From Pedomonas mirosovicensis (lineage in GTDB: Bacteria; Pseudomonadota; Alphaproteobacteria; Sphingomonadales; Sphingomonadaceae), in NCBI RefSeq assembly GCF_022569295.1, contig NZ_JAKFIA010000001.1, forward strand, positions 2,123,001 to 2,187,000: a stretch of 64,000 nt of DNA, read 5' to 3'. The position numbers and the translations under genes were made by a program. Below are positions 59,634 through 60,476 of this stretch, in pieces. The notes beneath the pieces were generated by a model. The model did not search any database. It worked only from the letters and a program-made list of their open reading frames with translations, and was not told the origin of the DNA. How positions within the stretch are numbered: position 1 is the stretch's first letter; each line of letters starts with the position of its first letter.

Positions 59634-60263
59634 ATGGCGAAGATCTTGCCCACGCTGGAACTGGAACTGGCTCACGCCGCCACCTGCGGCGGCCTCGTGG
59701 CAGGCATCGACGAGGCCGGGCGCGGCCCGCTGGCCGGCCCGGTGATCGCGGCGGCGGTGGTGCTCGACCCCAATCGCATCCCTGTAGGCATTGCGGATTC
59801 CAAGGCCCTCGCCCGGGCAAAGCGCGAGGCGCTGCTGGAGGAGCTGCTGCTGGCAGCGCACGTGGGCATCGGCGAGGCCAGCGCGGACGAGATCGACCAG
59901 ATCAACATTCTGCAAGCCACCCTGCTCGCCATGCGCCGGGCCGTGGAAGCCCTGCCGGTGCGCCCGGCCGTCGCGCTGGTGGACGGCAACCGCGCCCCCA
60001 AGCTGCCCATCCCCTGCCAGACGGTGGTGAAGGGCGATGCCACCTGCCTCTCCATCGCTGCCGCCAGCATCGTCGCCAAGGTGACGCGCGACCGGATTAT
60101 GGACCGGCTGGCGCTCGAGCACCCAGGCTTCGGGTGGGAACGCAACGCCGGTTACGGCACCGCCGAACACCTCGCCGCACTGCGGCAAATCGGCCCGACG
60201 CCCCATCACCGGCGCTCCTTTGCCCCTGTTCGGGAACTCTTCGAGCAAGAAGTTGCCGGGTGA
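59634..60263 (+). CDS. rnhB: Ribonuclease HII
   Basis: 209 residues. The catalytic acidic cluster begins at GGLVAGIDEAGRGPLAGPVIAAAV (Asp-Glu) and includes VALVDGN and SIVAKVTRDRIM. It nicks RNA in RNA-DNA hybrids and starts ribonucleotide excision. It is immediately upstream of ccrM, an order shared with other alphaproteobacteria as I recall, but the GANTC-dense gap between them suggests separate transcription of ccrM. Confidence 0.95.
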   Translation: MAKILPTLELELAHAATCGGLVAGIDEAGRGPLAGPVIAAAVVLDPNRIPVGIADSKALARAKREALLEELLLAAHVGIGEASADEIDQINILQATLLAMRRAVEALPVRPAVALVDGNRAPKLPIPCQTVVKGDATCLSIAAASIVAKVTRDRIMDRLALEHPGFGWERNAGYGTAEHLAALRQIGPTPHHRRSFAPVRELFEQEVAG

Positions 60264-60476
60264 GTCTTTTCAGCAACACCGCATCATCTTGAGTCTCCAA
60301 GCGAATCGCGACTCTACAATTTGTATCCGAGTCGCAACGTCGAGTCGCATCAACACGACTCGGCAGAATCGCTTTGATTCCGCTCGCGAATCGACCCGTT
60401 GACCTTTGCGAATCACCGAATCAGTTTGGTCGGATGATTTGTTCAGCCAAAGATCAAGGGTAAAACGAATGGACTC
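60262..60476 (+). promoter_or_regulatory. GANTC-dense control region of ccrM
   Basis: GANTC sites start at 60262, 60291, 60303, 60310, 60329, 60342, 60357, 60366, 60376, 60388, 60410, 60418 and 60472: twelve in 161 bp plus one at codons 2-3 of ccrM. All four N variants except even balance are present (GAATC most). A TTGACC at 60399-60404 could be a -35, with two GANTC sites in its spacer, though the -10 is poor. A short AAGGG ribosome site follows. CcrM methylates exactly this sequence, so the region could read its own methylation state, for example through GcrA. Confidence 0.8.

Follow-up and report, generated by a model that had tools for sequence, protein, structure and literature searches.

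The window analyzed here is a 64,000-nucleotide stretch, positions 2,123,001-2,187,000 of a larger contig, from a genome of 3.63 Mb; a second genome of the same genus was not found among the genomes searched. In it, rnhB (59634-60263, plus strand) is the upstream neighbor of ccrM (60469-61547, plus strand), as it is at 90 of the 110 loci compared, where rnhB lies within 500 bp of ccrM on the same strand. The ccrM frame is split in this assembly: the C run at 60564-60569 (within 60562-60573), part of the catalytic DPPY motif, is one base short, and the C-terminal frame is open at 60618-61547. DPP is in frame at 109 other loci of the ccrM comparison. The one-base frameshift is possibly a homopolymer assembly error, or it may be real. 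Directly 3' of ccrM, the minus strand at 61626-62000 carries a tandem pair of similar small lipoprotein-like frames, which by eye look entericidin-like.

The region before ccrM is packed with CcrM sites (GANTC). Twelve of them occupy 161 bp (60262-60422, not assigned to a strand), starting at 60262, 60291, 60303, 60310, 60329, 60342, 60357, 60366, 60376, 60388, 60410 and 60418, and a thirteenth (60472-60476, plus strand) is formed by ccrM codons 2 and 3. A position count found all 13 where the original prediction had placed them; its description of the twelve as lying in the rnhB-ccrM gap is right as to positions, except that the site at 60262 overlaps the rnhB stop codon.

To judge the density of the cluster, we took the genomic GANTC rate from a 600-kb sample of this genome, made up of 30 stretches of 20 kb. 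It is 1.34 per kb, or 0.216 sites expected per 161 bp, which gives 12 sites a Poisson probability of 1.7e-17; the expectation of one site per 256 bp assumed earlier is about threefold too high for this genome. The claim that nothing similar occurs elsewhere was borne out over the 600 kb sample plus the window (about 17% of the genome), where the next densest 161 bp has 5 sites. The motif is in fact scarce outside the cluster, since the whole window contains 103 GANTC, whereas its dinucleotide shuffles average 260. The 15 other palindromic pentamers (XYN plus complement) each occur at most twice in the 161 bp.

Conservation of the sites upstream of ccrM

The comparison drew on three sets of regions upstream of ccrM. 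Set 1 holds 107 regions picked by CcrM similarity, 63 of them mutually dissimilar. It derives from 80 loci with a similar ccrM (Sphingomonadales, Rhodospirillales, Hyphomicrobiales, Pelagibacteraceae and unplaced Alphaproteobacteria, with three labelled as other groups) and from loci L081-L110; the window took the place of L081, which is its own copy, and L037 and L063, which are without upstream DNA, were dropped together with one region identical to another. Because related regions are not independent, set 2 gives the fairer count: it consists of 90 regions, mostly one per family, obtained by taking 100 of 133 matching genomes and dropping 10 near-copies of set 1. Set 3 consists of 39 held-out regions, from the best 60 previously unused among the listed part of 252 matching genomes, with 21 near-copies dropped. 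Upstream sites were counted at a fixed offset from the conserved CcrM frame, over the interval -300 to +10. The controls were 636 stretches from set-1 loci; since these are mostly coding DNA, a first-order Markov null was added.

At least four GANTC precede ccrM in 78/107 regions of set 1, 35/90 of set 2 and 21/39 of set 3, while 6, 12 and 1 regions, respectively, have none. With its 13 sites the window is the richest region of set 1 (the runner-up has 11), and the maximum in set 3 is 12. The original prediction had held that a dozen sites is far more than the two of Caulobacter, which is correct, yet intermediate numbers (2-9) are common in relatives. Site density is concentrated just before the gene: in set 1 the three 100-bp bins before ccrM have 10, 23 and 16 sites per kb against 0.3-4 per kb in the remaining bins, and in set 2 the same bins have 3, 11 and 17 per kb, compared with 3.4 per kb over the opening 250 bp of each fetched stretch.

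The sites themselves are conserved, rather than the flanks. Across 43 moderately similar pairs of regions, which overlap and are not independent, 156 of 215 GANTC sites were retained, compared with 7-33% for the 15 remaining palindromic pentamers and with the 15% that single-base conservation predicts. Relatives that keep the gene pair and lack the cluster, named beforehand as a point that would count against it, do exist but are a minority, in that 6 of the 88 rnhB-adjacent set-1 loci have at most one site and 67 have at least four. The cluster thus proved to be tied to ccrM and regulatory in appearance, as proposed: it recurs across the class, its sites are conserved, and two of them lie within a conserved core promoter.

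Not all sites are equal in this respect. Six of them (60303, 60342, 60357, 60366, 60376 and 60388) match no conserved position, and it is because of these six that the window is extreme in site number. The sites at 60262, 60291, 60310 and 60329 form a quartet (60262-60333, no strand assigned) with 29-19-19 spacing that is also found at L082, and as 29-20-19 at L033 and L107. Overall, the sequence comparison points to a few sites of fixed geometry, two in the core promoter and two in the facing arms of NrdR-type boxes, accompanied by variable extras.

A predicted core promoter built with CcrM sites

In 63 of the 107 set-1 regions a GANTC starts exactly 19 bases from the start of a TTGAC, where about 1.6% per TTGAC would be expected from site density; a looser peak lies at +7 to +9. 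Among the 38 dissimilar set-1 regions with the +19 site, position +24 is A in 97% and position +28 is T in 89%, and all 30 set-2 regions with TTGAC-N14-GANTC have both the A and the T. The full motif, TTGAC-N14-GANTC-ANNNT, occurs in 54/107 regions of set 1, 30/90 of set 2, 20/39 of set 3 and none of the 636 controls. It is thus absent from about half or more of the regions compared, and none of the 32 promoters in sets 1 and 2 that have one GANTC or no GANTC contains it.

We read this motif as a putative -35 element, a 17-bp spacer and a CANNNT -10 element whose C is the last base of the GANTC. The window has it exactly, on the plus strand: TTGACC at 60399-60404 as the -35 element, a GAATC at +19 (60418-60422) that ends on the opening base of the -10 hexamer, and CAGTTT at 60422-60427 matching the class consensus CANNNT. 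A further GANTC (60410-60414, plus strand) sits in the spacer at +11 from the -35 element, in relatives mostly at +7 to +10. The sites at 60410 and 60418 therefore both fall inside the predicted sigma70 core at 60399-60427, a promoter deduced from conservation. A generic sigma70 scan of the window region did not call this core; a weak -10 element would fit a promoter that requires a cofactor.

The motif is rare in the genome at large, with two exact copies in 691 kb, one at ccrM and one elsewhere. The second is TTGAC-N14-GAGTC-ATTAT at position 4296 of L141, on the minus strand before an unnamed frame. Within the window, a related stretch, TTGAC-N13-GATTC, lies on the minus strand at 2642-2668 before a gene that, by eye, we presume to encode the DNA-binding protein HU.

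The candidate cofactor is encoded in this genome. A GcrA gene lies at G000:C1:73431-73817, with two matched stretches over the Pfam cut-off, and GcrA was found in 40 of the 40 genomes searched, the window's own among them. GcrA is described as a protein that binds sigma2, brings polymerase to promoters carrying methylation and promotes the formation of open complexes (PMC7403470). Caulobacter start sites that have a GANTC between -35 and -10 are reported to be activated at 40-60 min, and among 96 cell-cycle start sites with GANTC in the 50 bp upstream, 11 have two or more (PMC4287350).

Paired NrdR-type boxes upstream of the core

Two 16-bp palindromes, neither assigned to a strand, lie among the upstream sites. 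Box 1, CCGCATCATCTTGAGT, occupies 60279-60294 and its inner arm contains the GANTC at 60291-60295; box 2, ACTCTACAATTTGTAT, occupies 60311-60326, 32 bp from box 1, and its inner arm contains the GANTC at 60310-60314. They were found by scanning for 16-bp palindromes 31-33 bp apart that score at least 29 against an assumed NrdR consensus; the consensuses for CtrA and DnaA used below are likewise assumed. Look-alike pairs inside rnhB codons are false positives and were removed by a sequence filter. The window boxes match 15 and 16 of 22 consensus positions at a spacing of 32, and their inner arms are off consensus.

Pairs at this threshold occur in 53/107 regions of set 1, 30/90 of set 2 and 18/39 of set 3, compared with 6/636 controls. 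Against the first-order Markov null for set-1 regions, at score 30, the count was 2/535 versus 55/107 observed before the rnhB filter. As a positive control, the same scan was applied around 31 ribonucleotide-reductase matches in this genome and its relatives; pairs turned up in the 1.5 kb above 18 of them and below none. This genome's nrdA has an NrdR-type pair with a score of 29. The genome also encodes NrdR itself (G000:C1:1960173-1960604, over the NCBIfam cut-off). Measurements put the spacing optimum of NrdR at 15-17 bp between boxes (PMC12051234), and its boxes are given as 16 bp long (PMC12176259), which together make 31-33 bp from start to start, the spacing found here.

Among the 83 pairs of sets 1 and 2, a GANTC occupies the exact inner-arm position in 39 (box 1) and 38 (box 2), compared with 0 and 3 for the outer arms; the effect is weaker in the 18 pairs of set 3, with 5 and 4 inner and 0 and 1 outer. 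Sets 1 and 2 include 153 dissimilar regions; there, a match of at least 15/24 to the non-GANTC part of the consensus accompanies 14 of 29 GANTC pairs 20 bp apart, 3 of 29 at 19 bp and 1 of 17 at 18 bp, and every other spacing from 8 to 45 bp has one such pair or none. The window's inner-arm pair, 60291/60310, is 19 bp apart and scores 15 outside the GANTC. Box pairs also go with site number in set 2, where they are present in 20/35 regions with a high site count versus 10/55 (p 2e-4). Like the core, the NrdR-type pair is absent from about half or more of the regions compared.

Where core and pair co-occur, the boxes lie from -36 to 139 bp above the -35 element, and in the window 72 bp above it. 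These distances fit a period T of about 11.1 (R 0.62, p 2e-4), a p value that is post hoc, as the period was noticed before testing. The phasing was not confirmed by held-out distances when period and phase were set in advance (7 distances, V 0.196, p 0.24).

Motifs for other cell-cycle regulators were also sought. No CtrA motif (TTAA-N6..8-TTAA), the mark of CtrA-dependent ccrM promoters in Caulobacter and rhizobia, lies above the window's ccrM, where the best match is 6/8. Across sets 1 and 2 a CtrA-like motif is present in 19/32 regions with at most one GANTC versus 6/32 with at least seven (controls 67/636); the association is not significant in set 2 alone (p 0.13) and marginal in dissimilar set-1 regions (p 0.041), so that CtrA motifs show no more than a tendency to be commoner in GANTC-poor ccrM promoters. 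Exact DnaA boxes (TTATCCACA) are found in 7/107 regions of set 1, 8/90 of set 2 and 0/636 controls, with none in this window region. At L109, L110, L032 and L285, such boxes (TTATCCACA) stand just below the ccrM -10 element.

Discussion

On balance, we favor the reading that the cluster serves ccrM as promoter and operator, in which CcrM methylation would feed back on ccrM transcription through the core sites, with NrdR-type boxes upstream. The feedback probably acts through GcrA and sigma70 at the core, and dNTP-sensing NrdR may act at the boxes above it. RNA polymerase opens DNA at the -10 region. In a sigma70-type core of the form TTGACC-17 bp-CAGTTT, one CcrM site would sit in the spacer while another supplies the first -10 base, and its mark would therefore adjoin the point of DNA opening. 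GcrA, a cofactor of sigma70 that recognizes GANTC when methylated, would be able to reach the core marks, and because CcrM sites form the facing arms of the boxes, NrdR would read or shield marks too.

A cycle of expression could then run as follows. Replication would leave all sites hemimethylated and open an expression window; GcrA-loaded RNA polymerase would use the core marks, with NrdR adding a further condition from upstream; and newly made CcrM would refill the sites and end the pulse. The extra sites of the window's lineage might steepen or delay the shut-off. The direction, on when hemimethylated and off when full, is suggested by analogy with Caulobacter, whose ccrM promoter is described as having two GANTC and higher expression when hemimethylated (PMC10073500); a modelling paper assumes that hemimethylated DNA alone allows ccrM transcription and that methylation shuts the gene off (PMC2217572).

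Several points count against feedback of this kind. For Caulobacter ftsZ, activity is reported to rise from unmethylated through hemimethylated to fully methylated DNA (PMC3708114), so refilling need not mean shut-off, which speaks against the simple version. The distance of the boxes above the -35 element is unusual for a simple repressor, and the generic scan made no sigma70 call. The window is without a CtrA motif, whereas Caulobacter ccrM is described as CtrA-activated, and the 6 of 88 rnhB-adjacent loci lacking the cluster belong on this side too, as do the weaker inner-arm placement in set 3 and the many regions without the core or the box pair.

The marks could instead be an output. NrdR or another bound protein might keep CcrM off some sites, making local hypomethylation a read-out of occupancy and not a control input. 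This is a minority possibility that we take seriously: the MucR protein is reported to block CcrM at GANTC in its target promoters, GANTCs overlapping CtrA boxes in a synthetic construct are described as only partly methylated (PMC5172544), and the facing arms of the box pairs seen here contain GANTC. Shielding gives no reason, however, for a +19 site fixed at the -10 element; the observed site conservation applies to the sites as a whole and does not separate those inside boxes from those outside.

Doubt of equal weight attaches to the identity of the boxes, which may belong to a regulator other than NrdR, with GANTC as part of its recognition sequence. The consensus used was an assumed one, the inner arms deviate from it and the window boxes match only 15 and 16 of 22. 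We nevertheless judge this unlikely, because the 31-33 bp spacing is the measured optimum of NrdR (PMC12051234, PMC12176259), because the scan places pairs above 18/31 reductase genes and below 0/31, and because the non-GANTC consensus match is concentrated at GANTC pairs 20 bp apart, with the window's 19-bp pair scoring 15.

The titration or counting array suggested by the original prediction, where site number would matter and site place would not (CcrM or GcrA being sponged up), could account for a region that has the most sites of the 107 in set 1, six of them unaligned. It is nonetheless improbable, since 13 of about 4,900 genomic sites (extrapolated from the 600 kb) are a negligible sink and fixed site positions recur across the class.

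Still less probable, to the point of being barely credible, is a SeqA-like sequestration in which helically phased sites bind a promoter-covering protein while hemimethylated. GANTC distances pooled over the 107 regions do peak near 10, 20, 29 and 40 bp, with a best period of 9.8 that stands above all 301 jittered nulls. The window array taken alone shows no helical phasing (p 0.875), though, and in dissimilar regions the sites outside core and boxes reach only p 0.016; with phasing that weak outside these elements, the geometry of core and boxes accounts for much of the pooled signal. On the same two values, we make no claim of a helically phased array. Chance, base composition or a decayed repeat can practically be dismissed: the region has two short direct repeats of 75% identity, 20 and 16 nt long, but the Poisson probability is minute, no other palindromic pentamer is enriched and the cluster sites are conserved across relatives.

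We hold a wider version of the favored promoter-and-operator reading more tentatively, and incline somewhat against it. It states that NrdR controls ccrM in many Alphaproteobacteria from an operator that has GANTC in its facing half-sites and stands at helix-phased distances (about 11 bp per step) from the -35 element, while the -10 element is built on a GANTC as well; the state of methylation, nucleotide supply and replication would then be read together.

Parts of this design have known counterparts. The Caulobacter ccrM promoter likewise has CcrM sites of its own and is described as expressed when hemimethylated (PMC10073500, PMC2217572), but it is described as CtrA-activated with two GANTC, whereas the window has 13, no CtrA motif, NrdR-type boxes and a CcrM site at the -10 edge. 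Caulobacter sigma70 promoters that are read by GcrA or activated by CcrM (ctrA P1, podJ P2, ftsZ, mipZ) resemble it in having a GANTC between -35 and -10, and a GcrA gene is present here; they differ in that the window has two GANTC in the core and ten above it, and in that the -10-overlapping site recurs at ccrM class-wide. The NrdR operator of ribonucleotide-reductase genes shares the two 16-bp palindromes 32 bp apart, and the same scan finds both, yet here the gene is a DNA methyltransferase, CcrM sites serve as facing arms and the boxes stand above the -35 element. A synthetic CcrM memory circuit also places the methyltransferase gene under a regulator that responds to its own marks; it was engineered with a methylation-sensitive zinc-finger repressor of the ccrM operon (PMC5458116), whereas the present case is natural and would use other proteins.

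Methylation-controlled promoters are thus known, and among the sources found not one describes this build. In the literature searched, which took in few subscription journals, three papers contain both NrdR and CcrM as words; going by their titles they concern Acinetobacter, E. coli and Streptococcus, and none concerns Alphaproteobacteria. A regulon study that covers NrdR in 186 genomes does not mention ccrM in the available portion of its main text. One paper that counted GANTC upstream of cell-cycle genes holds, in the part available, that control by methylation cannot be derived from counts.

The literature we met on ccrM switching comes mainly from Caulobacter and rhizobia. What the comparison adds is a precise promoter signature, TTGAC-N14-GANTC-ANNNT, over much of the class, which would place a methylation mark at the -10 edge, and a candidate link between the sensing of DNA precursors and DNA methylation. 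Short DNA fragments and changes of single bases would suffice to test both the signature and the NrdR link. Judging from these sequences, ccrM seems to be wired to read the marks of its own product in many Alphaproteobacteria.
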